Shown here: piece after piece, positions 1 through 16,289 of the stretch
Layout of the letters: each line of letters starts with the position of its first letter
How positions within the stretch are numbered: the stretch's first letter is position 1
From: Tubulanus polymorphus
Taxonomy: Eukaryota > Nemertea > Palaeonemertea > Tubulaniformes > Tubulanidae
DNA length: 64,000 bases
Direction: 5' to 3'
NCBI RefSeq assembly: GCF_964204645.1
Contig: NC_134034.1
Location: 9,109,414-9,173,413 of the forward strand
The notes under the pieces: generated by a model
Told to the model about the DNA's origin: nothing
The model's database searches: none
Seen by the model: only the letters and a program-made list of their open reading frames with translations
Made by a program: the position numbers and the translations under genes

Positions 1-946
1 AGTAGCCGCCCGTGTGACTTTCCCATATCAAAAAGAAAAACAACCTATTTAAGGAAAATTGTAAATTTATTTTTAGGATTTTATGAACAACGTTACACAT
101 TTACAAACATTATTTGTTAGATGTTGAATACTTGAAATATTTTTCATACTTTTCTGTATCAATAAAATCAATTGAAATGAATTGATCCTATTACGACTTT
201 TTAACACAACCAAAAAATAATTGCTGACGAGATGACCATCACCTGTGAAAAAAAGCGAATTTTATTTTCTGTTGGAGATATTAAAAAACGGACTTCACCA
301 TAAGATTCCTCATACAAAAATACACCAGTGACATAAGTTTGAAGGACGTAGACAGAGTGGAACATAGTGCGGTACGAAAGTAAAGGAATGCCGACCAATG
401 TACACAGAAGTTACGTGCCCTTGAAAATGTAAGGATTTCAAAAATTTTCTGCCGCAGTATTAGTAAAAGCAGCACTTAGTGATCGCTCCCCAGTAACCAG
501 TCATTGTTGCGTTAATTATTGTATTTAATTGATTAATATTTTACATTTAACATTTCTTAATTAATTTAAGGTAAGTATCATATTATAAATGGAAAGTGTA
601 TGTAGAAAACAGTCATTTATAAGTCACGTAGGAAAGTTTGAGGAAAAATGTTAAACGCAACGATATTTTCTCGTGAACTCCAAAAATTTGTTATGATGTT
701 TACCTAGAAAGCGTGCATGGTGACGTTTTGATATAACTTCAATGTCGAGGTTAGTATAACTTAGTTTTAACTCTAACTGGAATTTTAGATATCTAAAAAT
801 AAAATAACAATTATGAAATAACTAATATTTATAACGTATTTATAAATACACTGACTAATTTACAGCACTGTGATATTTCCGCTTTGTATTTCTTCTTCCA
901 GTTTCTCAACATACAATGCATCATCATTATCGTACTTGATATTGAA
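1..946. other. Non-coding, AT-rich flank
   Basis: No convincing gene is seen on either strand. The short open frames around 200-475 have no recognisable domain or splice context. The stretch is AT-rich intergenic DNA downstream of the minus-strand gene that ends at 947. Confidence 0.6.
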
Positions 947-2799
947 TCATGACGAGTAACCAGGAACAGAAGAAATAACCGTAGCTAAAAATTTGGTGAG
1001 TACGCCGCTATCATTTGGATCGTCTTCATTTTTTACAAGCATTTCATGACTGATTGTTTTCCCTATCAAATTTCCAGCTCGTTCTCTTTCCGTTGCGGTT
1101 GTTGGAATCGCTTCTGCTGCTTCGACAAGCTGAATGACATTTGCTTGTAGTTCATCTAAACTTAAATTCCTTCTTTTCTTTTCATCTACTCTCACAGAAA
1201 ATCTGTATATAGAGGCATCATCCCATTGCTGCTGGAGAATTATCTCACGGAACCTTAACTGTCCCTTCAAAGCCATTTCTTTATCACTTTTGGTTTTCAG
1301 ATTATTCAAACTCTGGATAACATCTTGGGGAGTTTGCCAAAAGCCATAATACATGATGTCTTTGATTATTAGTTCTCTTTCCTTCATTTGCCGTTCTCTT
1401 TTTTCAGCTAGCGCCTTTCTCTTATCAGCTAAGTTCTGAATTCTTTTTTCAGCTATCTCTTTTCTGCGCAATTTGTAAAGCTCTTGTATCTTGCGGCGAT
1501 CAGTCATGGCTTTCTGTACAAGTGCTTCTTGCTGTTTTGTAGGTTTTGATGCTAGCCAGTCTTGTGTCTTGTTGAGGGAGAACATAATATAAGCTTCAAT
1601 TCCAATGTGACTGATGTTGGGCTTGAATCTGAGTAACTGATCAGAATAGGCAAAGACTCTTTCTGCAAACTTATTGTGTAGCTCAGCACTTCCTGATGTT
1701 GAATGTTTCTCATTAGTTGAGAATTCACCTCCCTCCAAAAATTCCTTATACTGTTCCTTGAGCAGATTGACAATAGCAGGTAAGATGACGGAAAGTTGCA
1801 GTTCACATTCATTATCATATTCAGATTCTTCTATCAAACATGAATATACATGATCTTTCTTTACAGGATATATGTCGCTAAAGACTTCAAGTTCACCATT
1901 CATAAATTCACTGATCCTGGCACTAGCACTTTCGATGTAACTGATGAGCTCTGGAACAAATCGAATGAGGTCTACCATTTTTACTGTTTTATCCTCAGTG
2001 AGCCTCCACAATGGTCCAGTGATGAATTTACTGATTAGCCCTAATGCTTTACATCCAGCGATATTGTCTACGGATTTAAGGTCTGCAAACACAGACTTCA
2101 AGAGGCGATTTGGATTATCAACCATTTCCAAATAATCATCTTTTTGTGATCAGCTTGCTGTTCATCTTGACAATTGCGCTTATTGGACATTTTGAATGGT
2201 ATTCGCAGCCATTTTTGAAGTTCTTCCTACAAGAAATGAAATTTGGCTAATTGCTTCACTGGAGAAAAAACTGAATTTATATTTTTGTCTCCCTTCAAGT
2301 TTATAATACTGCATTTATAAATTCTATCATTATTGTAGGACTGTAGAGTATTTTTCATTCTTTATTAAAATTAATTGACAAAAAACTCTATCTTATGTTT
2401 TTATCAACTAAAAACTATTATATTATAAAAACTATTATAGATTCGAGATGGTCGAGAATGTCATTTTCTAATGATGAGATGTAACATTACCTTTTTTGAT
2501 GGCCGATTCTTTGACTTCAGCAAACTTTCATGATGTTTCACCATCCTGTCAAGCTTGGTATAAATTGAACTCTTGTTTGTTGATGGAAAATGTTCATTTA
2601 TCCATTCACCACATTTCTTCCTGCCATTGTTTTTATGGTAATGAAGATCATCACTTGTCATTAATGAATCATCATCGACATCGCTATCAGGCTGTAACAT
2701 GATTAACCTATAAATAGAAAGTTTACGATGAAATGTATAGAAAAACAAATTCAGATTATATTTAGAACTGTACATAGAATTTTGGCCAATTTGACACAA
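947..2799 (-). pseudogene. Conserved multi-exon protein of unknown function, one-base frame break
   Basis: Three exons read on the minus strand. The first (within 2799-2480) encodes an acidic start (DSDVDDDS) followed by a basic region ending RPSKK at a GTAATG donor. The second begins near 2226 after a TTTCTTGTAG acceptor (EELQKWLRIPFKM). It runs into the long 394-codon frame, but the frame changes by one base in a short A run near 2140, consistent with loss of one A. The large domain is mostly helical and contains a very basic coiled coil at about residues 205-255 of the long frame (KRIQNLADKRKALAEKRERQ). The motif ALKGQLRFREIILQQ near the C-terminus resembles, from memory, a repeated gene family of fish and invertebrates with no assigned function. 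A start within the long frame alone would lack the conserved N-terminus. No catalytic motif is visible, so no function is claimed. Confidence 0.55.
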
Positions 2800-3284
2800 A
2801 AAAAACTAGGCATGTCCTATTTTGTTCGCCTACTTCTAGTTTTGATCATTCAGATTTTTTCACTCAAAAGTCTCAAAAAATTAATTGGATGTCCATATAG
2901 TCATACTTATTCATTATTGAAACAACTATGGTAGGCTATTAATGAATAAGATAGGCCCATCATATGGTTTTGTTAAGATTCTAGCTTTTGGATATAAGAA
3001 ATGGCCAGAAATGTTAATGATTGGGCATCTTTTTATTATGAATACAGTCAGCTGTTTTCCGCACGTGCGTTTGTTTACAAATAATCGATGACGTAATCAC
3101 CGCGACCCTTAAATAACGCCCTCGTCGAGGAAGTGCGCGAAATTGCGGAGATCCGTAATTTATTTTATTTTGCAGACGACGTTATATTCCATCAGATTAA
3201 AGCTTATTTTCGTTGAGCTCGATTGAATTAAATCCGATTTTTGAGTTCTTAGTACGCTGTTTGATAAAAAATTGTCTTACCTGG
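2800..3284. other. Intergenic, no gene seen
   Basis: AT-rich sequence with no recognisable gene between the minus-strand gene and the solo LTR. It holds one GC-richer patch near 3060-3130 with an ACGTGCGT motif, of unknown meaning. Confidence 0.5.
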
Positions 3285-4111
3285 TGTCACGACCTTGCAT
3301 TCATAACTTCATATATTCATGCATTCTGCATGCATGCATAGCTTATAGCTAGCTGTGTGTTTGTTGGGATCGGCGCACCTTTCTCAATGTGACCATTCAA
3401 CCCTAGCGGTCAATTCTATATAAGATTTGGTTTAAGCGTCGTTTCACTAGACACGACAAACCCGTCCAGCTGTTAGGACACCGTATTGGGTGTAGTATAG
3501 TAACACATGTATGCTGTTCACGGGGTAAGTTAAACTATTCTAATATTTATTCTTAATAATCATTCCAAGCAAATTGCTTAATAGATAAACCATTGTATTG
3601 TTCTATCTTCGGATAAATCTTTGTATTATAATCAAATAACATTAGAATTGAGACGCACGTTTGGTTTGCAGGGTTTATGACCCTTATAAATGTCGTAACA
3701 ATAATTGTTGTTGTCTTTTAGTTTGTGAATTATATCCACTCAGATACGTCAAGTGAGTGCGTGTCTCGAAACCTCCCGTACTCAAGCTACGTCAGTTAGT
3801 GCGGTTAACGTCTGAGCGCCTGATATTTCAGTTACTAACGGACGGTCGTCAACATTCGCAATATCCTGGGAGACCCACATACGTTGATCAGTGTGCACCC
3901 ATCAAGGTCACGTCTCACTCGGATACCACCACGGCTCACTACTGGAGAAGTGTGATCAAACTCTAATTCTAACTCCATTCTAATTAACTGTAGAAGTTAC
4001 GTTGGAATAAATTTGTAATTCGTTTTGTTTTAATTTAAGAATTCTTGTCGTCCGTTGTTGATTCTCTGCTATCGGATATCCTATTGGGGTTTTCCACGGA
4101 CCCTCGTGACA
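3285..4111 (+). mobile_element. Solo LTR (827 bp) with 5-bp target duplication
   Basis: The segment starts TGTCACGA and ends TCGTGACA, a perfect 8-bp terminal inverted repeat of TG...CA type. It is flanked on both sides by CCTGG (3280-3284 and 4112-4116), the 5-bp duplication expected from an LTR-retrotransposon integrase. Inside are a TATA-like TATATAAG at 3417-3424 and an AATAAA at 4006-4011, giving plus orientation. No internal coding region or second LTR adjoins it, so this is a solo LTR left by recombination between the two LTRs of a former element. Gypsy and Bel/Pao families both make 4-6-bp duplications, so the family is open. The small frames inside are not taken as genes. Confidence 0.85.
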
Positions 4112-4561
4112 CCTGGGATTTGAACCGGCTGGCTGAGGTTAAATTTCCGATTAGTTGTAAAATCGATGAAGCTGTTACAAAAAAGAAGGTCATTCGCCAT
4201 TGATATGCTAATTTCTGGGCTTCAAATTCATTATCCTAATAAGGAAATATATTCGGTTAGAAATGCATATTCATATCCGTCGCTTCGCGATGAAATCCAA
4301 GATGGCGGCGTATTGTTTACATTCGAAGCGAAAATTTGCCAGCGCAAAAACCTTGTTTCCACAGTAATTATTGAAAATAGACATGATGTAACGCATCAAA
4401 AGACAACATAAGCAAGTACTGTTTATAAAAATACGTTTATTAATTTCTGACAGTGTCTCATTTATACGCTATTTAACCCTGAAGTTGGCTTGTTTCTTAA
4501 AATTCCCCATGCCGGCAGGCTGAAAAATCCAATATGGCGGCTCCCGTGAACATCGCTACAC
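4112..4561. other. Intergenic, no gene seen
   Basis: Contains a tRNA B-box-like GATTTGAACC just after the solo LTR, but no A box or cloverleaf. Nothing else is recognisable. Confidence 0.4.
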
Positions 4562-5067
4562 TTACTGTCTGTCACACATGCTCTTCGTGCGACGTTTTGG
4601 TCCGTAATTTCGTTAATAATCGGTTGATCTGTAAATATTATGCATCAATTTGTTCAGTAAGGAATTTGCATTCAGAAATAAATCATGAACTGGCAGAAAT
4701 TTGTTTGTGTTTTCTTCTATCAGCGATAGTTTACCTAGCATACGCTCGCTTAATGCTGAAAAACGGCTTTTATGGCCCGTCACGTGGCGCCACCTACTGT
4801 ATTTTTATATGCTAATGAGCAGGTGATGACGCCACTGTAACGTTTCCGAGCGTCCGCGGAGCGGATTTTTCAGCATTACGCGAGCGTATGCTGAGTAAAC
4901 CATCGCTCATAAATGAAAACAAAAACAACTTAAGTGAAAATTGTTGTTTATTTCTGAATGCAAATTCCTCACTGAACAAATTGATGCATAATAAAGGTAG
5001 ATAAACCGATTATTAACGAAATTACGGACCAAAATGTCGCACGGAGAGTAGGTGTGACAGACAGTAA
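4562..5067. repeat. Foldback (long inverted repeat) element, 506 bp
   Basis: Two arms of about 200 bp are inverted copies of each other: left arm roughly 4562-4768, right arm roughly 4862-5067. The outer ends are TTACTGTCTGTCACAC and its exact complement. Matching continues through landmarks such as TTACGGACCAAAA, AACAAATTGATGCATAAT and GCATACGCTCGC. The spacer of about 95 bp is GC-richer. No coding capacity is seen; the frame at 4534-4815 is an accident of the arm. This is a non-autonomous foldback/MITE-type insertion. A target duplication could not be identified, so the superfamily is unassigned. Confidence 0.8.
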
Positions 5068-5496: not shown

Positions 5497-8039
5497 TTAC
5501 AACATTACAAGGTCACCAAGCAAGTAATCAACAGCAAATTCATAATTTGTCATATCAGAGTCCTCTCCATCATCATCATATGTTTCACCTTCACTCCAAT
5601 AACAAATGACATACACGCTCTTAGACTTCAGTCTTTTCATTTTTTCTATCTTCCCGTAGTAGAAGAGTCTAAGATTTTTCTCATCATCATGCCAGTAGTG
5701 CCCGACATCTCGCCCGATACAGTCCCCAGACAGCAGATCAGTTAATTCTAACAGTTGATCTGAATCCAGATCGGGGAACGCTGACCCAACCTCTTCAGCC
5801 GGTGTTTCTCTGAGTTTTTTCTCCATTTTTTTACGATCAGCCATACAGCGTTTTTGAGTTTTGCACGCTCGCCTTAGTGAAATGTCTCTTAGAATTTGTT
5901 TGGCTTCATTGCGACTTTCTGTATTGTACTGTCTAGCTTGCTTGACAGAAAACTGCACTAGGTGATCACGCTCTGGTACTTCGAAAGTGTCCATGAACTC
6001 ATTTACACGATTTTTCTGTGCACGTAATTTAGATGACAAGAAAACCATTGTTGCAAAAAACATCGTTTGGCTGTTGACGAAGTGCAGACAGAATATCATT
6101 TTTTCGCACTAGTTCTCTGTTTTTACTATCCTTTCCACAAATTTTGTGTTCTAGCGGACTTCCAAACAAGTCTGTTTCTCTCGTTAAAACAGACAAAATA
6201 TCTTTCTTTTGTTCTTTCATCATTGCCAGGACATTTCTTACCAAGCTTATACCATGCAGATGATTTATTTCGGTATCTTGGGATGTATAAAACCTCTGCA
6301 TCCACGGACCAGTTAGCAGTTTTCCCATCAACCCAGCCACATGCATTTGCACGATAGCAGTAATATGGTTGAAGTCGGCTTTCAGAGCGGTTCTTAGGCC
6401 ACCACAATCGGTTCCAGTGTCGAGAAATTTGCCAAACATTTTCAAGTGGCAAAAGTATTTCCCACATATGTGGAAAAATATATGCAGACGATTTCCACGA
6501 TACCTTGGAATGAATCCCAAAGGTAAGCCATTTTCCATCAACATATTTTTAAATCCAGTTGGGTCACCTTTACCGTCTACAAAACGGAGTTTGTTCATTT
6601 GCAGAACAACATTTCCAGCCATACAATCATTTCCGAATAGTTTTCCATTTTCAATTTCTTCTTTTTTTAGCGCAGCTCGAACTGTTGAGGCGATAGTGTC
6701 CAATGGATGAAGGTGGCAATTTAATTCAGTGAGTGATTTATCCCAAGCTCTATTTACTAAAACGATGGTAGCGTGGTTTGTATTGACTCTATCAGTCATA
6801 CTGTTGGTGATTCGACTAATTATATCTGCGCGGCGTTCCTGGTAACTGATATGTTTATATGCAGAGTAAAGTTTAGCAATATGATCGAATGAGGTTATAA
6901 TATGACTACTGTAATCCGCAGCGGTTCCACCAGCTAAGCGGTCAATTGCAATCACTTGACAGCGTTCATTCGAAAATGTGAGATGGATGCTGTTTATATG
7001 GACTCCTTCTTGTGTCGTAGCATCAAAACCTAGAGTGATGTTATCATTCCTAAGTATGGTTTCAACAGATTGAATATCGCTGATAACTCCAAGTTCTCGA
7101 CACATCTGTTCCACTGTTGTTCGATGCGGAATATCCGTTTTATAATCAAGTTCAACGTCGAACCTCGATGCAGACTGTTTCAATAGAGTTGGGATATTGG
7201 CGGTGGGCACCTGATTAACTAGAGCATCATAAACAAACAGCCGAGTTGATACTTGTATCTTCTTGTTTTTACTCTCTCTACTGAAACTTTCCACTGTCCC
7301 TGATTGAGAACTGTCCAATTTCATCTCGAGGTCTTCAATAATGTCATTTTTCATATCAAGCTCCGATTTCAGCTTCTTCACTTCCGGTTGATCCACTAAT
7401 TCCTGCTCCAATCGATCATTTTTCCTTTTTAACTTTCGAATTTTGTGATTAGCGATTCCAAGCTTGACAAAATGTTCAGTTTCTGAATATTGTTCTTTCA
7501 TTGCAGATATCTGGGCATCTCGACGTCTTAACTTCTGGGTCAAAACACGAACATTGCGTTTTTTTAAAAGCTGATACTCTAAAAACGCGATGCGCTTCTT
7601 CAGTCTGGCTGACATATCTGAATGCAACTGGAGCGACTTGTCAAGTCGCAACCTGAGTGATGGACATTTTGCACAAACTGGAGTTGATGAACTCTCCGGC
7701 ACTGATGACATCGGTCTACTTCGAACTGGTTTTGTATGACATGCAACAGAGAATCGCTCCTCACACAACGAAGAAAATTTGGCAAATTCGTTTGGATCGG
7801 TCAGCTTCTTAAATTTGTTGACTTTCCCGATCAAAAGCTGAATACGTTTCTTAAATTCGTATGGAGTAATGTTGATTGTTGGTTGTAACGCTGTTATCGT
7901 TTTTGCCTGGCTCTTCTTATTCTTGTTGAATGTATATATAACATGTCCATTCTACATCTTCTTCAATTTTTGAAAATCTTTCCAGGAATTCACTGCCTAC
8001 ACCTATTTTCCGCGTCTTAACATCCTCTTTAACCTCCAT
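5497..8039 (-). pseudogene. Coiled-coil transposase-like protein with two +1 frame breaks
   Basis: Three overlapping minus-strand frames join into one protein. An ATG at 8039 opens a 40-residue segment (MEVKEDVKTRK...). The frame then changes by +1 near 7920 into the long frame (7834-6029 and upstream of it). A second +1 change within 6029-6099, at a T6 run, leads into the last frame ending at 5497. The repeated tail DVFCNNGFL/VFLSSKLRAQ at the overlap shows where they join. The protein has a Cys pair (CAKC), a coiled coil at about residues 55-185 of the long frame, then a globular region with GFDATTQEGVH, HLHPLD and FHICGKYF motifs, and an acidic C-terminus. The GFDATTQ and HPLD blocks look like an RNase-H/DDE-type core seen in repeated proteins of marine invertebrates and fish. 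I cannot assign a superfamily. Two same-direction shifts suggest decay rather than programmed shifting. Confidence 0.55.
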
Positions 8040-8975
8040 TTGAAAAGATCTGCAAATTTACCTCCAAATTTAAGAGAAAAAAAATCTATTGATAAAATAA
8101 GATTCAATTAATTTCCATGCAATAAGTGTCTATTTAAACCGAATTAGCTAGTTTGTAAATACATTTTTGAAAAGCACATGCGTTTATTTACTATTGACAT
8201 TCGCATCAGCCAATCAGGTAACGAAGACGATGTCACGTGACCAAGAATCGCCACAAAGTAAACAAAAGAAAACCCTTTCAAAATCATTTTAAAATCACAT
8301 ATTTTATTCTCAAAAGTACTTAGACATTTACCAAACATACTAATCTTTCGATTATTCATTCTAAAACATATTTTCGGCAATTTATAGGCCCATATTTCGA
8401 CCCAACACCAGAAGACAAAACATCGTAATTTCTTCAAAAATGGCCGACCACGTCAAAATACATCGTCCGTTCCGGGTAATATTTTACAATGTTCTTGTCC
8501 TAATATCTACTTCAAACTTCATCATTATTTCAATGAAAGACATAATTCGATATGCAAATAGGTTTCATTAATATGCAGTCTCACCTAGAGGTATATTTAG
8601 CGCTTCGAAATCAGGTAAAATCTTCAAACTTCGCAAATTTCCGTGATTCTTAACCGATCAATAAAATTCGAAAACGAGGTGGAAGTCCCGGATTTCCCTG
8701 ACATCATACTAGGGAATCCCATAGGTATTCCTCAAAATAAGCCAATCAGAGCGATTTTAGTAGGGGATATCCCTAAGAGAGCCCATTTCCGCGTCACAGA
8801 ATAATCGAACTGCGCGTAGCACGATTCTGCCACATACCTACTTAACACACAGGGGCTTGTAAACTGGCTTGGATTTTACTTCCGGGTTGTTGATAATCTC
8901 GCGAGAATGGCGCTAAATTTAAACTGCAAATAAATCTAAAATATCACAGAAATACCTCTTGTTGAGGTAAGATTC
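8040..8975. other. Intergenic, MITE-like debris
   Basis: No gene seen. Short palindromic phrases near 8700-8780 (TAGGGAATCCC, GGGGATATCCC) look like decayed MITE ends. Otherwise ordinary AT-rich sequence. Confidence 0.4.
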
Positions 8976-8990
8976 AAGAATAGGGGACTA
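8976..8990 (+). repeat. Left 15-bp inverted repeat
   Basis: AAGAATAGGGGACTA, an exact reverse complement of 13762-13776. The AGGGGAC core is compatible with a G-rich Merlin-type end. Confidence 0.6.
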
Positions 8991-9356
8991 GGTTGTCTAC
9001 ACTCCTAATATCAACCCGCCGTCGAAATACTTACCTCCACTGTAATTTGCATTAATCAATACAACAGCCGACGATTTTTTGTCAAAGTAATAACCCCTTG
9101 ATTAGAAACTATAACAACAAACTAATCCGCCAATAAACCACAAATAAACGAACACGGTCCGCCATGATGTTAGACTGGTCGCCTGTCGAATTCTGCGCCA
9201 CATTCATTCGCAGTCAGAATAACTTATTCGAATAACTGAAGGTAGAGACCGGTAACCAGTCTACCATGATGTCACACAAATTACCCCCAAAAACCATCCG
9301 ACGAAGTCATGTAAAGCGGGGTGTCCAGCGGGCGCAACGGAAAACGGATAAGAATA

Positions 9357-9810
9357 ACACAGTCCTCAAATTAAATATGCAATCAAACCGATTTTCATGA
9401 AACCACAACCACAAACAACTAAACAATTTCAAATTCATAACTGATAATTTTATTTACTTACATAAAACACAATCCTCAAATTAAAAAAATCAATCAAACC
9501 CGATACATTAACACAATCCTCAAATTGAATAAGCAATCAAACCTGATACATTAACACAATCCTCAAATTAAATAAGCAATCAAACCTGATACATTAACAC
9601 AATTCTCAAATTGAATAAGCAATCAAACCTGATAGGCCTACATTAACACAATCCTCAAATTGAATAAGCAATCAAACCGATTTTCATGAAACAACCACAA
9701 ACAACTAATCAATTTCAAATTCAGCACTGATAATTTTATTTACTTACATAAAACACACCATTGACACAATCCTCAAATTAAATAAGCAATCAGACCTGAT
9801 ACATTCACAC
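9357..9810. repeat. 43-bp minisatellite, about 7 copies, with a nested longer unit
   Basis: Units begin ACACAATCCTCAAATT and continue GAATAAGCAATCAAACCTGA, at about 9357, 9467, 9510, 9553, 9596, 9645 and 9765. Two copies carry an extra segment of about 65 bp (ATTTTCATGAAAC...ATTTTATTTACTTACATAAA), so a longer compound unit of about 110 bp is also duplicated. The array lies just downstream of the transposase stop codon. No coding sense. Confidence 0.85.
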
Positions 9811-9843
9811 ACACTCACCACTCACACATCTTTATCTGGTATC

Positions 9844-11007
9844 TTAATCTGTTCCACATTTATATAATGCACAAATATCGTCCAAAAATGACATGAACAA
9901 ATTGTCAGTGTCAGCATGTAATCGACGCCACATGAACTCACCAAAGTACGAATCGTACATATGCTTACGGGTGCCAAATTTTGGTAAGCTGGATTTTGCC
10001 AGGTGCCACATGCCTTCCACTGTGTTGATATGCGCGCCAGTCTCAGGGTCCTTGAAAGTGACCGAATGATTGACGGAAAAGTGTTCAAAACCTTCCTCGT
10101 CTAGCGTTTTATACGACGACCAACAATCTGAGATAATTACAGTCCCTGCCTCAATCCAATCATGGATAACGGAATAAAGCGTGTCACGCCCCCGGTCTGG
10201 CACACACACCAGAAAACAGCGAACAGGAGGCTGACCCCTCTCCACTCCTCCAAACACCCATTGCCCCTCCACCCGTTTCCCTTTGTGGTATTTTCTTTTC
10301 CCAAATTTCAATTCGTCAATCTCGACAATTATTCCGGGTCCGCCAATTTTGGAAGATCTCTTCGTGATTACCATGTCCACGCACACTTCACGACAGAAAC
10401 TGAACCAATCCACAATCGTCGGCAAACTTAGGCCACATTCATGGGCCACATTCGTCAGTGATATTTTCCGGCTCCACCAGTACGTCACTTTGAGGATGGT
10501 TCTAATACTCAGTTTGCTGCTACTAAACCACGAGTCCGCTCGCACCGATTTTTTGGACTTGCAGCTGGGACATCGCCATATGTAGCCGTCGATTCGAGAC
10601 TTATCCTTCACTTCGTACATTGCGTTGCCACAAGACACACACTCACGACAAGCACCTAACAATTCTAAACAGAAATACATAACGTCATTCATGTTTCAAG
10701 CAAAAACCATAAATTACAGTTCTGGCAAAGTCCAATCATTACCATTGCAATAAAATTCTTTCATTTGAATATATCCAAAAACTATTGAATGGCTACATAA
10801 ACAAGATATTCTAAAGCAAACAATGATTTAGGGGAATCATATACCACTCTAATTTCGCACGGATTACTTATCTCACAATTACATTCTCAGTGCATCATTT
10901 CAATACTTACTATTCTTCTGACACCATCGAAATAACTTCTCAGAATCCATGCATAATTTGAACAAATCTTCAGCTGTCCGCATTTCGATTTCTTCGACTG
11001 TGGCCAT
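9844..11007 (-). CDS. Merlin-family DDE transposase (IS1016/ISXO2-like), 2 exons, apparently intact
   Basis: Exon 1 is 11007-10911: it starts MATVEEIEMR and ends at a GTAAGT donor in phase 1. Exon 2 is 10664-9844, after a TTTCTGTTTAG acceptor. Joined, they give 305 residues with no stop. A zinc ribbon is visible: CRECVSC at 38-44 pairs with CPSC at 64-67. Next comes a helix-turn-helix-like stretch (LTNVAHECGLSLPTIVDWF, about 102-120). The DDE catalytic core has D149 (EIDELKFG), D212 (ISDCWSSY) and E249 (NTVEGMW), the spacing of ISXO2/Merlin transposases that cut and paste DNA. A start at the internal ATG at 10692 would lie inside the intron and add spurious residues, so exon 1 is preferred. 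All catalytic residues and both splice sites are present, so the copy could be active or recently active. It is divergent from the ATPase gene starting 262 bp away. Confidence 0.88.
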
Positions 11008-11268
11008 CTTAACAAATACACACTATTTCAAACCTACTGTCTAGACGACGATGCACATTTCACCCTAAAACAGCAAATCTCTGGACATTGTCACACACAA
11101 CAAATCAACATAACAATGCAATTGGACTATCCTAAATAACCTAATTCTATTATCAGGGATGACACCATCACACCTTGGACTACCCTACATAACCTTATTC
11201 TATTATCAGGGATGACACCATGACACCCTGTCTCCAGAATTATCCTCAACAGCATTAGCTGGTCCAAA
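11008..11268. promoter_or_regulatory. Divergent intergenic region with a duplicated 53-bp block
   Basis: This 261-bp gap separates the start codons of the minus-strand transposase and the plus-strand ATPase gene, so both promoters should lie here. It contains two direct copies of a block of about 53 bp (about 11125-11177 and 11178-11230). Each has TTGGACTA, then CTATTATCAGGGATGACACC, with a few differences. Duplicated blocks next to a transposase promoter are often protein-binding sites; here that is an inference. Confidence 0.45.
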
Positions 11269-13595
11269 ATGCCACCAACAAAAGGGATGTCAGCTGCACA
11301 CCTAATATATCCTTACAATGATGACCACATTTTCCTGCACATTTTCCCCCCCTATTAATAACATTAACCTTCACACACCTTCATATAAAGATGCCCTCAA
11401 CCTCTGCATGGGCCTCTTACATACCAAGATGTCGAATAGGAGATTCAAACAGGAGAGTATCAACAAGCTCTACAAATCCGCATATAGGGAAAAGTTCTCG
11501 TGGGAACATATATTCAATGAAGAGACGTTGCACTGGCTGCAATTACATGAACAGGCATTCAACTGCAATGTTGGCATATCAGTAGCAAACATATTAACTG
11601 CCACTGCTGCACTGCTGGGGCCAAATGTAGCAGTAAAAACTACAATGAATGAAACGTCATTGAATACTTACGTCATGTCCGTTTGTGTTTCGGGTGGAGG
11701 AAAAACAATTGCGTATAACAACATTACCAAGCCGGCACTGAAAGCATTCAACAATAAATACGGTTTAAACCTTCAGCTTGAAACTTACAGCATAGCAGGT
11801 ATTCAGCAACACCAAAAACAGACCAACGGCTACGGACTAATAACAGCTGACGAAGGGGGAAGAAGACTGAAAGCAATTACATGCAAACAAACAAAAGGTG
11901 AGGGCGAACTGGGCCTCCTCAACAAAATGTGGGGAGGGGAAGGTGACACATCAGTCCTCAGTACAGGCGCTCGGGGTTTTAACAAGACTGGCATTTCGAT
12001 GAACGTTCCCGTTCAGCTCTGCTCTCGAACGAAATGATGCACTTGGCGGCTGTGGCAGATGGCTTTATGGATAGAATATTGTTCATTGTGTCGAAACCAA
12101 AATTCCATGATGCCCACATCAACGAACAGAGCGCTGCCCAGTATGACGTGAACACTGTCCAACATATATGACGCCATGCTGACACACCACCAGGATAAAG
12201 TGACTTACACATTTGATGAGAACGCCACCGAACTGTACCGCAACATGACAAGCAACTTCGCCCAATACATGTCCGAGAAATATAACACAGATTCAGATTC
12301 AGGTACAGTACACACCTTTAATTATCGAATTCTTACATGAAACTGTAAAATTGGAAAACCATTGCTTTGCTCATCTAAATAAACTTTGGACGTTTCCTTC
12401 CATTCCTGTAAATAGACAAACATACCACGCACATATATACTATGTATGCAATCATTTGTTGGCGAACATGTGCCTAATGTATACCAATTCTTTTTACAGA
12501 TGCACCAGAACAAACGATAACCCAGCAACTGGAAACGCCGATTACCATAACGTCCACAAAAGATTCCCAGCACGTCATCAAACTCGCCACAATAATCCAT
12601 ATTGTAGATCACTATTTCCTTACCACACATAATCCACCCCCAACAGAAATAACTCAGCGAAGCTTTAAAGCTGCGACCAGACTGCTTTTCACAATGAATA
12701 AACAAAAGGCACTGTTCATGGATGTAAGTAACGCCGACAGCCTTTTGAATTTAAACATCTACTTTTATGCAATTCGATCAGGGGTCACTTACCCTATACG
12801 ACCTATCTCCTGATTTTACTGGTTTATTCACTGACATAACAATCTGAAAAAGACAATTAATCCTAAACATTTGCTTTCAGTCAACATTATGATTATATGT
12901 TACAGGCAATTCAGACTATAATGCAAGATGCAGCTCTCAACATTCGGGCAACACCTAATTGGAATCAGAGGATTCTGAAAGCCATATGCAATCTTCCCGG
13001 ACCTATGATAACAACACGAATGGTACAACTACGGATAGCGGGTAGCTTACAGCAACAAATCAAATGTAAGTAATGTACTTAAGGACCACTATTCACTGCA
13101 TTACGCACAAAAAATTTTTTTCTATTCTTTGCCCCCTTACCATTTTGCTAAATTTGGAACACCATACTCAATTCTATTATCAATTAAATGAAACACACAC
13201 CCTACATAACCATCACAAACTCCATAGGCAAATATAATAACCATTATGATAATGTCCCCTTCTCTTCAAACATTCCTAAAATGAGAAACAATACAATGTT
13301 TACACATAATTAAAGACCTCATGATCTTATATTTTTGAAATGTTTGTATATTGCAGATAAATTACAGGAAATCGGAGAAAGCGGTTTCGGAACATATGCT
13401 ACAATAAAGGTGGGACGTCAGAATAGAGATATATTTCTAAAGCCACATCCAGACACTATAGAAATCACAAGCAACCATCTTACAACAGCGGGTACAAGCC
13501 ATGATGTTTATGTGGCAAAATTCTACGACCTAAAAGATATGACAGATACCATGACACCAAAACCACATTCTCTCTATATCTTTGCCAGTTGTTGA
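11269..13595 (+). pseudogene. P-loop ATPase (DUF3987/primase-helicase-like), 4 exons, frameshifted
   Basis: Exon 1 (11269-12302) begins MPPTKGMSAAHL and shifts frame at a C6 run near 11350. It then carries a clear Walker A (VSGGGKT) and a Walker B-like LITADEGGRR. It shifts again near 12012 into a frame with DGFMDRILFIVSKP, and again near 12167 (YDAMLTHHQDKVTYTFDENA). Exons 2 (12500-12723), 3 (12906-13065) and 4 (13357-13595) follow canonical splice sites whose phases match exactly (1, 0, 1). The protein ends ...LYIFASC. The order Walker A, DE box, then a GF-x-x-R-x-LF motif resembles DUF3987 proteins, which are replicative primase/helicase-type ATPases in plasmids and phages. The open downstream exons show it was a real spliced gene. 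The three shifts argue that this copy is dead, unless they are assembly errors. Confidence 0.6.
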
Positions 13596-13761
13596 GGTGT
13601 CGAGCTGTCGAGCTGTCAGTCCTACAAGCCACGTTCTCTCTTTATCATCATGTATAGTAGGCTTTGTGTCGCACCGCCATCTATCCACCAGTCCCTTTTG
13701 GATTGCTAAGTATCGCCAGGTACCATCTATGGACAATTTACGGGAGCTACCACCCGCGCTA

Positions 13762-13776
13762 TAGTCCCCTATTCTT
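13762..13776 (-). repeat. Right 15-bp inverted repeat
   Basis: TAGTCCCCTATTCTT, the exact reverse complement of 8976-8990, 167 bp beyond the ATPase stop codon. Confidence 0.6.
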
Positions 13777-16289
13777 AAATCGCACCCTTGTTGATGTTGT
13801 TCATTTATCCACTATAGAGTTTCGATAAACAATTGGCTGTTAAGGATCAGTATCAGCGGGCACGACGCCTTACTTTATTAAAATAACAAGGGATGAAACG
13901 GCTTCGCTTTTGCCTGTGACCGTATTGATGCGGCGGAAACCACTGCGCATGCATACTAGGAGGCCTCGAGTCAAAAAAAGAAAGACAAATAAGTAAATAT
14001 TCATTTCAGGAGCTATCCTAGCATTTCCTTTAATAGTGAAGACGAATATTTCAACTTATTAGGCAAAGGAGATTGGGAAAAGTAAATTTTTGGTGGGGAA
14101 AAAAATTTGAGAAAGACAAGGCCTGGATTCTGGTGGAAAATACTAAAAAATTTGCCATTCGATAGCCATTATTTTACTTATACTTGGCCGATTTCTTAAT
14201 AAAGAATGAATTTAATGAGTAACATTGTCGTTTTAGTTGCTAATTTGCCATTTTGAGTAGCAAAAACGAACCAGGAAGTGTTTTAATTGATCATCTGGCA
14301 GCCGGTGTGGAGCCGGAAGTGACCTGGATGTAAACAATTTTAAGCACCTCGCCAACTTTAGGTCAAAATCCGCGAAAGACTACTAAATCAATCATAAAAG
14401 TAATTACAGAAAATGATTAATAAAGTATTCAATTTTGAAACGTATGGGTGTACTTTTTGTCAATTATTATAATTTTCGAATATTGAAGCTTTGAAATACG
14501 TTCATCGCTTGAAAATAGCAAAAACACGGCCGGGCAAAAAAGTACGCATCACTACGTTATAGCCGAGAAATGTTTTTAAAATGTCCCGAGGTCAAATAAT
14601 CAGCCAATCAGCAGTGGGCTTGCGGATTTGACCTGAAAAATTGCATGTGGTTTTCACGTGATTGAAAAATGCATGTTCAAACATGGCCGCCATTTTGTTT
14701 CCTAGAAATCCGGCGATGCGCGCTGAACTACGATTTATTCGTCTGTAACTACGCAAGATACACTCATGAAATTTACACCACAACAAATAACTGGTAAATT
14801 GAGCATACTGAGCAAGTTTGGTTTCAATCGGATATAAAATGCGTTTTTTGTGAGTGAATAAAAATTTGAAGCGAGGAAAACGCTAATTATGACACATTTT
14901 GATCACGTGACCTGAAATCCCTATTAACATGCTCTCCTGGCATTTGACTCATCATTGCTTTCACAACCGGCTTACGTAGGGCCTACCATCCTTTTTGACA
15001 CACCAAATCGAGCTGCCATTGAACAAAAGGATTCAGAAGTGCCTGAACTGATGAAATTAAGCAAAACATCCATCCATCATGTGTTAATAATCCAGAATGA
15101 AAATAAGTGAACGTAGGGCCTTGTTCATTATACCTTGTTCATATTATACCTTGTTCAGTGGATATCGTTTGATTGGGTTAATATGTAATAGATGAAATCT
15201 AAGTGACGGACGCCACGGTCAATGCTTGATTAAATTTTTCATAGCAAGAAATCGTACAGCAATTCGAAAAGAACCACATTCACGTACGAATGTTTTGATG
15301 AGCATTTTATGATGAGTTGATGAGAAAATTCAATATTTAGTTTTTGACTGGTAAAAAATGAAAGTTTGACGGGTAGAAAATGAAAGTTTGACGGGTAAAT
15401 TTGATATTTCATTTTGACAGCATATCCATGCCATAGTATTCTTCCTAGGTCTCCAAATGTTTACAAAAAAAGTATCGTAGTTATCAATAGGACTATTGCC
15501 TGTTCAGAGACTTGGAAAATGTAAAAAATATTAGCCTTATTACAAGCAACCAGAGACTAGACATAAAAGGCATGATTTATGGTAGCATTAAGATTAGAAT
15601 TTGGCTAGTGTTTCAATTTATGTTCAATAGATGGCGCTAGTTATAGCTCGGCTGTCAAAATATGTTAGCTCAGGAGGCAGTTACACCCGATAATAATTCC
15701 TAAATTTGCAATCCAAACTTCTAAAGGCAATCGTCAACTTAAATATCGATTAAAAAAACATTTTATTGATGACTTTCATCTGTTTTGTGCATTATCTGCA
15801 TTTTTCGAATGTTAGTACATAAACTATGAAAAATAATGAAATAATGAACATTTTCATAATTCATACAATTTATTATAAATGATACCTTACAACGATAGAT
15901 GGCGCTTGCATACAATCAAACCCACTACACTCCTAAAGATCTGGCTCTTTAAAGACAGAGATGTTCGAATAAATTTCAGCTGTATATGTACTAAAAAAAA
16001 AACTGCTTAGGAGCTTTAAGCTATAACAACTCGCATGTTTTCACTAGCTGGCGTATATGAAAAAAATCTATTTGTCAAAAACGCGTATTGAAAAACCTCA
16101 TAAATTTCATTTCTATTGTTGAACTGAGCATACATTCTACCAAGCCATGTGCTCAAACTACAAATTCGATCAAATTTTATTCTGCCAAAAAAATAAAATC
16201 CAATTCAATTTTGTTTTATTTAGCAACTTTCAGAAAATCCAATTCAATTCTATTCAGCATTCATATCAATAAGACCAAGAGAAACGATC
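13777..16289. other. Long non-coding stretch with small tandem repeats
   Basis: No gene seen on either strand in 2.5 kb. Local features are a direct repeat of TTATACCTTGTTCA near 15128-15160 and a three-unit repeat of about 22 bp near 15345-15400 (GACGGGTAGAAAATGAAAGTTT and variants). Confidence 0.5.
15345..15402. repeat. Three tandem 22-bp units
   Basis: GACTGGTAAAAAATGAAAGTTT, GACGGGTAGAAAATGAAAGTTT and GACGGGTAAATTTGATATTT follow one another directly. No coding meaning. Confidence 0.7.

Follow-up and report, generated by a model that had tools for sequence, protein, structure and literature searches.

Merlin Elements and Transposase-ATPase Pairs

A DDE transposase and a P-loop ATPase are carried on one element in Tn7 (TnsB/TnsC), Mu (MuA/MuB) and IS21 (IstA/IstB). 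Merlin, a superfamily of eukaryotic DNA transposons, has been described as a minimal one-gene cut-and-paste element. The present work deals with a Merlin element of the nemertean Tubulanus polymorphus, located in a stretch of 64,000 nucleotides (NCBI RefSeq assembly GCF_964204645.1, contig NC_134034.1, positions 9,109,414 to 9,173,413 of the forward strand), which is called the window below. In this element, a transposase and a DUF3987 P-loop ATPase share terminal inverted repeats and were inserted together, leaving a target-site duplication of 8 base pairs (bp). The pair is kept in several diverged families with differing gene orders. The survey covered one genome (268 Mb in 77 contigs, the window being C10:9109414-9173413); contigs and loci are referred to by C and L numbers.

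A Merlin survey reports terminal repeats of 24-462 bp, conserved 5'-GG-3' ends and duplications of 8-9 bp, and states that IS1595-family elements usually have a single transposase gene (PMC8101967). The one extra frame mentioned there belongs to a Symbiodinium family; its overlap with the transposase is attributed to chance. No ATPase is described in this survey, and 'helicase', 'ATP' and 'DUF' as word starts are absent from its main text (PMC8101967). Three curated mollusc Merlins have a mean length of 1,635 bp (PMC10294476). DUF3987 is presented as a predicted helicase of mobile elements standing beside primases in bacteria and archaea (PMC5862659). KolobokP is a eukaryotic DNA transposon with an added His-Me finger nuclease (PMC9587614). 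No report of a Merlin with DUF3987 was found in the searched literature, which held few subscription papers and no preprints and did not cover Repbase, so that a described element could exist.

Ends and Target Duplication of the Window Element

The two-gene Merlin element of the window (copy W) occupies positions 8966-13786 (4,821 bp). It is bounded by 25-bp terminal inverted repeats at 8966-8990 on the plus strand and 13762-13786 on the minus strand (GGTAAGATTCAAGAATAGGGGACTA / GGTGCGATTTAAGAATAGGGGACTA), with 22 of the 25 bases paired and GG at both ends. An inverted repeat of at least about 24 bp with a 5'-GG start is the Merlin type of end. The 8-bp duplication CTTGTTGA is perfect at both flanks (8958-8965 and 13787-13794) and falls within the 8-9 bp typical of Merlin. 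When the flanks (2 kb on each side) were shuffled 3,000 times, none of the shuffles reached 22/25 with a perfect 8-bp repeat, the best pairing being 18.

A preliminary description of this DNA, made from the letters alone, had considered the missing target duplication as the weak point of a two-gene element. This objection falls, because a perfect 8-bp repeat stands outside the 25-bp ends and the pair lies beyond the shuffled values. The perfect 15-bp inverted repeat of that description exists; it is only the inner part of the 25-bp repeat, and the ends had been set about 10 bp too far in.

Transposase and ATPase Genes

The transposase gene is located on the minus strand. Exon 1 (10911-11007) carries the start codon, and exon 2 (9844-10664), entered through a splice acceptor, carries zinc-ribbon-like cysteines, the DDE catalytic domain and the stop codon. 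Joined at GT-AG sites with the frame kept, the exons would encode an open product of 305 amino acids (aa). The open reading frame 9844-10695 (minus strand) matches DDE_Tnp_IS1595 (PF12762; E = 4.7e-19, 69.3 bits, cut-off 27) and IS1595 (NF033547; E = 6.3e-31, 107.9 bits, cut-off 75). The predicted catalytic residues, D149 in EIDE, D212 in SDCW and E249 in VEGMW, were matched to the Merlin blocks by eye. The open frame and both profile scores agree with the earlier reading of an intact Merlin DDE transposase.

The ATPase gene is read on the plus strand in four exons (11429-12302, 12500-12723, 12906-13065 and 13357-13595). The exon structure was derived by hand from the sequence, using GT-AG sites, with the phases agreeing at all three introns. 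Exon 1 contains the Walker A motif SGGGKT (11690-11707) and the sequence ADEGG with the DEGG box (11846-11860). The stretch 11306-12034 (plus strand) matches DUF3987 (PF13148; E = 1.9e-7) with 31.1 bits over the Pfam cut-off of 27; with the same cut-off, the relatives in L017, L023 and L024 score 96.5 bits (E = 2.4e-27), 68.5 and 66.9 bits, respectively. Exon 4 encodes the C-terminal part, where a winged helix was suspected by eye and no Pfam match was obtained. The profile search, the exons and the motifs thus uphold the four-exon gene with Walker A and DEGG box that had been likened to DUF3987. The window copy itself is damaged: its frame is broken twice in exon 1, near 12,020-12,040 and near 12,150-12,170, with two in-frame TGA codons. 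The spacing of 262 bp earlier given for the two divergent genes was not reproduced, the start codons (11007 and 11429) being 421 bp apart.

A PHROG named 'DNA helicase' matches the ATPase of L017 (E = 3.7e-17). Close relatives of the ATPase were sought by a peptide-pattern and tblastn scan of viral contigs, in which 82 stretches matched the pattern and none was confirmed, and by the same scan of prokaryote contigs, with 48 matched and none confirmed. A tblastn search against phages and plasmids at E 0.01 gave nothing close.

Aid to replication by the ATPase, as suggested in the earlier description, is not supported. In this reading, the ATPase would be a replication helicase, and the element would multiply in episomal form or through replicative transposition. 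Self-replicating elements such as Polinton and Helitron have a polymerase or a Rep/helicase gene. The position of DUF3987 domains, predicted helicases, next to primases in bacterial and archaeal mobile elements (PMC5862659) speaks for this. However, no primase or polymerase gene is apparent in the element. The six frames of at least 100 aa in L017 are the transposase, the ATPase and four frames of 105-188 aa, none of them polymerase-sized (the four were not scanned against Pfam), and the 8-bp duplications fit ordinary DDE insertion. Self-replication is ranked fourth among the readings of the ATPase and is considered quite improbable.

Other Two-Gene Copies and Their Families

Protein searches of the genome gave 35 matches for the ATPase exon and 76 for the transposase, both lists being lower bounds; merging reduced them to 26 and 55 loci, respectively. 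The scan for ends covered the window and 22 loci, 23 stretches in all; it required GG ends and an 8-9-bp repeat with no more than two mismatches. A pair of ends around the genes appeared in eight stretches, of which seven were accepted (the window, L017, L018, L019, L020, L030 and L023); the end pair of L034 was dropped as weak (16/25 paired, two mismatches). The 8-bp duplication is perfect in six of the seven accepted copies and agrees in 6/8 bases in L023. The remaining scanned loci appear truncated, degenerate or too short for judging the ends. In all seven accepted copies the ATPase lies within the ends, which departs from the usual single-gene layout of Merlin and IS1595.

Family A comprises L017 (C4), L018 (C6), L019 (C9) and L020 (C7), more than 99% identical to L017 over the main alignments. 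Their ends are GGCTTGGCTTTACTATACCTTACAC and GGTGCACCTTTACTATCCCTTACAC, with the ATPase inside in 4/4. Each has its own perfect 8-bp duplication: GCTGCAGT in L017, AGCAGAGC in L018, ATGAAATG in L019 (other strand CATTTCAT) and CCAGTACT in L020 (other strand AGTACTGG). The elements are 4,738, 4,867, 3,916 and 4,714 bp long, respectively. The ATPase exon of 467 aa is open in all four, and the transposase frame is open in L017 and L020 (350 aa), broken in L018 and mostly lost in L019. In family B, both genes are convergent (tail to tail) within the ends; L030 (5,548 bp) has the perfect duplication GTTATTTC, and L023 is the copy with the imperfect one. In family H (L038 and two further places), the transposase is followed by the ATPase start on the same strand, and the ends were not found.

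The genome-wide search for copies thus bears out the proposal that both genes belong to one Merlin element, as other copies hold both genes between the same ends with 8-bp duplications. Merlin copies ending between the two genes, which would have contradicted it, were not seen. Two A-family loci without the A-type ATPase were checked for this, one on C2 (discussed below) and L043, where the transposase is cut short beside a foreign insertion.

A Merlin transposase lies within 5 kb at 16 of the 26 ATPase loci, with 0.05 expected; in 2,000 permutations, the mean was 0.1 and the maximum 3. The bounded element on C9 (L019), with its transposase remnant, comes on top of these 16. Three further ATPase places (C49, C12:6860828 and C2:11320330) are not near a listed transposase, which makes 16/29 paired. 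A genome search with PF13148 returned 15 matches at 11 places, 10 of them over the cut-off; five of the latter lie within 5 kb of a listed transposase, or six if C9 is counted. As a control, 14 genomes were searched with this profile, and one matched (Bacteroides ihuae). An accidental neighbourhood, in which a Merlin lies next to or is nested with an unrelated gene, had drawn support from the lack of a target duplication in the earlier description. It is contradicted by the frequency of pairing and is refuted for families W, A and B, whose bounded copies enclose the ATPase and are flanked by target duplications; overall it is hardly credible.

Two neighbouring features were recorded at these loci. 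Next to the family-B element of L023, a stretch of 1,910 bp (6378-8287) has GG ends (20/25 paired) and the perfect duplication CGAATCAG; it is probably a neighbouring non-autonomous relative and was set aside from the accepted copies. Beside the truncated transposase of L043, frames at 2994-4562 resemble, by eye, a Polinton-type integrase and packaging ATPase.

Constraint and Exchange of the ATPase

At least four diverged families contain the pair, and three gene orders were seen among them. Between families, the proportion of synonymous differences (pS) in the ATPase is 0.80-0.88, which is saturated, and that of nonsynonymous differences (pN) is 0.20-0.41; pN of the transposase is 0.27-0.37. 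These values demonstrate constraint on the predicted ATPase between families. Families A, W, B, C and D branch in the same unrooted order in both gene trees, for which the chance is 1 in 15; family D is weakly placed in the transposase tree.

At C2:12131559, a family-A transposase (96% identical, dN/dS 0.12) is located between two A-type ends and is adjoined by a different and very distant DUF3987 ATPase (ATPase2). For two ATPase2 exons, the matches fall in separate parts of DUF3987 (E = 1e-5 and 8.7e-6); their scores of 25.4 and 25.6 bits both lie just below the cut-off of 27. When the two ATPases were compared by profile, the alignment covered the N-terminal part up to and including Walker A (E = 0.003, at a low probability of 10%). 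ATPase2 has three genome matches; those on C2 and C1 are beside family-A-like transposases and the one on C5 has no listed transposase nearby. C1 and C2 have a common junction, at which intergenic DNA nearly identical to that of family A changes abruptly just before the ATPase start. The flanks of the C2 element differ and form no target duplication; with A-type ends present and differing 8-bp flanks, this element may be a recombinant. The ATPase was apparently exchanged while the A-type transposase was kept. Two related lineages carrying different second genes suggest that the two proteins work together.

One transposase with two different ATPases would also fit exchangeable targeting modules, if the ATPase chose or licensed target sites as TnsC, MuB or IstB do. 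Tn7, Mu and IS21 likewise combine a P-loop ATPase with a DDE transposase. The family matches point elsewhere, to DUF3987 and a helicase PHROG, and the seven accepted duplications (W, four of family A, L030 and L023) have no obvious common target sequence by eye. Target choice, also suggested in the earlier description, is ranked second and regarded as unlikely.

Proposed Role of the ATPase

The explanation considered here as a whole, a two-gene Merlin in the window whose ATPase serves as a helicase-like accessory motor of transposition, is judged fairly probable. The step that makes the ATPase a helicase-like helper of the transposition complex is ranked first among the roles and, taken by itself, falls just short of an even chance. 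Under this scheme, DNA cutting and joining at the repeats with GG ends would need the transposase alone, as for one-gene Merlins, and the transposase could also move short elements consisting of ends only. The ATPase would form an ATP-driven, probably ring-shaped, helicase-like motor acting on the transposase-DNA complex or on the strands left by the transposase. It might, for example, unwind or remodel the complex so that host replication or repair completes the reaction. The window copy would need an ATPase from elsewhere, because its transposase frame is open and its ATPase frame is broken. A further step, in which lineages swap a DUF3987-family motor while keeping the transposase and ends, would make the system a functional counterpart of the bacterial transposase-ATPase pairs; this is offered tentatively.

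Several observations weigh against the accessory motor. The one-gene Merlin L041 (2,077 bp) has 25/25 end bases paired, the perfect duplication AAACCGTG and no ATPase match. Together with the many short W-ended elements, it shows movement without an ATPase inside the element. The predicted helicase activity rests on family names, because a PDB sequence search with the ATPase gave no match at E up to 1. For ten of the 26 ATPase loci, no transposase was found at a distance of up to 5 kb. An ATPase alone at a host locus had been named as a refuting case, and it is answered in part: C9 is bounded with a transposase remnant and L029 is a damaged member of a paired family, while the E family (L025, L033, L035 and L036) is unexplained. 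Within families, the dN/dS of the ATPase is 1.5 for L023-L030 (with only 11 changes), 0.70 for L021-L028 and 0.64-0.68 for the E pairs; further values are 0.56, 0.48 and 0.23. The picture within families is mixed, often with decay after insertion.

Movement of one-gene Merlins such as L041 without the ATPase, ATPase loci lacking a transposase and decay in some families would all be expected of a passenger gene that was captured, plays no part in transposition and is kept for the element or the host (for example, against silencing) or by chance. A passenger would not readily account for a pair recurring in at least four diverged families and three gene orders, for the same family order in both gene trees (five families, 1 in 15 by chance) or for the strong constraint between families. 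That a second DUF3987 ATPase has taken the same position argues for a slot needing such an activity. The passenger reading is ranked third and seems rather improbable.

With respect to the accessory motor, the existence of a one-gene Merlin with perfect ends and of short elements with ends only places the ATPase outside the cutting chemistry. With one mismatch allowed, the window-end 16-mer CAAGAATAGGGGACTA was counted 206 times genome-wide and the control 4 times. Among 100 listed places, 66 form 33 inverted pairs spanning 161-290 bp; these paired W-type ends have the look of short non-autonomous elements mobilised in trans. L032 holds an element of 793 bp whose ends are those of family B, with TGAAAGTT on either side. 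The ends at C1 17838260 and 17842657 (L039) were rejected as a second full W-ended element: they are 4.4 kb apart and enclose copia-like frames (330-3802, by eye). By eye, L039 is a short element into which a copia-like retrotransposon was later inserted.

The transposase of L040 is 98.6% identical to that of L041, and that of L042 is more distant; the ends of L040 and L042 were not found in the 3 kb examined. In the transposase tree, these one-gene rows join families A and W with a support of 81/95 at an open fork, and a clean split of one-gene and two-gene Merlins was not found. Within this group, the ATPase may have been lost or gained, since L040-L042 join families A and W.

Some unpaired ATPase loci have features of their own. 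A truncated PIF1 helicase frame (PF05970, E = 2.2e-16) is located just upstream of the E-family ATPase on the same strand in L025 (3815-4499), L033 (6258-5575) and L036 (3793-4477), where no Merlin transposase was found; L035 of the same family is without it. C8:175486-175677 and C4:17716189-17716362 match DUF3987 over the cut-off with no listed Merlin transposase nearby, and one of them is inside an open frame of 779 aa.

Other Features of the Window

The divergent intergenic region of the window element (11008-11428, 421 bp) contains a pair of 53-bp direct repeats at 11122-11227. Subterminal repeats occur on both sides of the element, at 9356-9785 and 13556-13595. A tandem array with a 43-bp unit (9466-9713) adjoins the left end. 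On the right, the 40-bp stretch 13556-13595 (plus strand) inside ATPase exon 4 is repeated elsewhere in the genome, the copies being clustered about 65-73 bp apart (65/68 matches of the genome search). Some of these clusters are near W-type ends, which suggests long non-autonomous relatives. An Rfam scan of 8900-13900 gave no match, and a tRNA scan of the window found none.

Outside the element, an open frame of 640 aa at 6029-7951 (minus strand) has an unconvincing best Pfam match (E = 0.76). It is matched at 43 places across the genome, in several of which the open frame is long, and has the appearance of a gene family or dispersed element not yet catalogued.

Comparison with Known Systems

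If the proposed role is true, a constrained, recurrent and exchangeable partner would give a eukaryotic DDE transposon an ATP-driven helper of an uncharacterised helicase family. Merlins with and without the second gene coexist in this genome, as do near-identical transposases paired with two ATPases; this natural comparison makes the helper role directly testable.

The elements share the DDE_Tnp_IS1595 transposase, GG ends and 8-bp duplications with the eukaryotic Merlin superfamily and the bacterial IS1595/IS1016, and differ from them in their length of 3.9-5.5 kb and in carrying an ATPase. With the primase-associated DUF3987 ATPases they share the Pfam family (L017, E = 2.4e-27); unlike these, the gene described here is a spliced eukaryotic one, its partner is a DDE transposase and no primase was seen. 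KolobokP is likewise a eukaryotic DDE element with an added enzyme gene, although it belongs to another superfamily and its second protein is a different one. The two-gene layout is that of Tn7, Mu and IS21, whereas both the transposase and the ATPase of the Tubulanus polymorphus elements come from other families.

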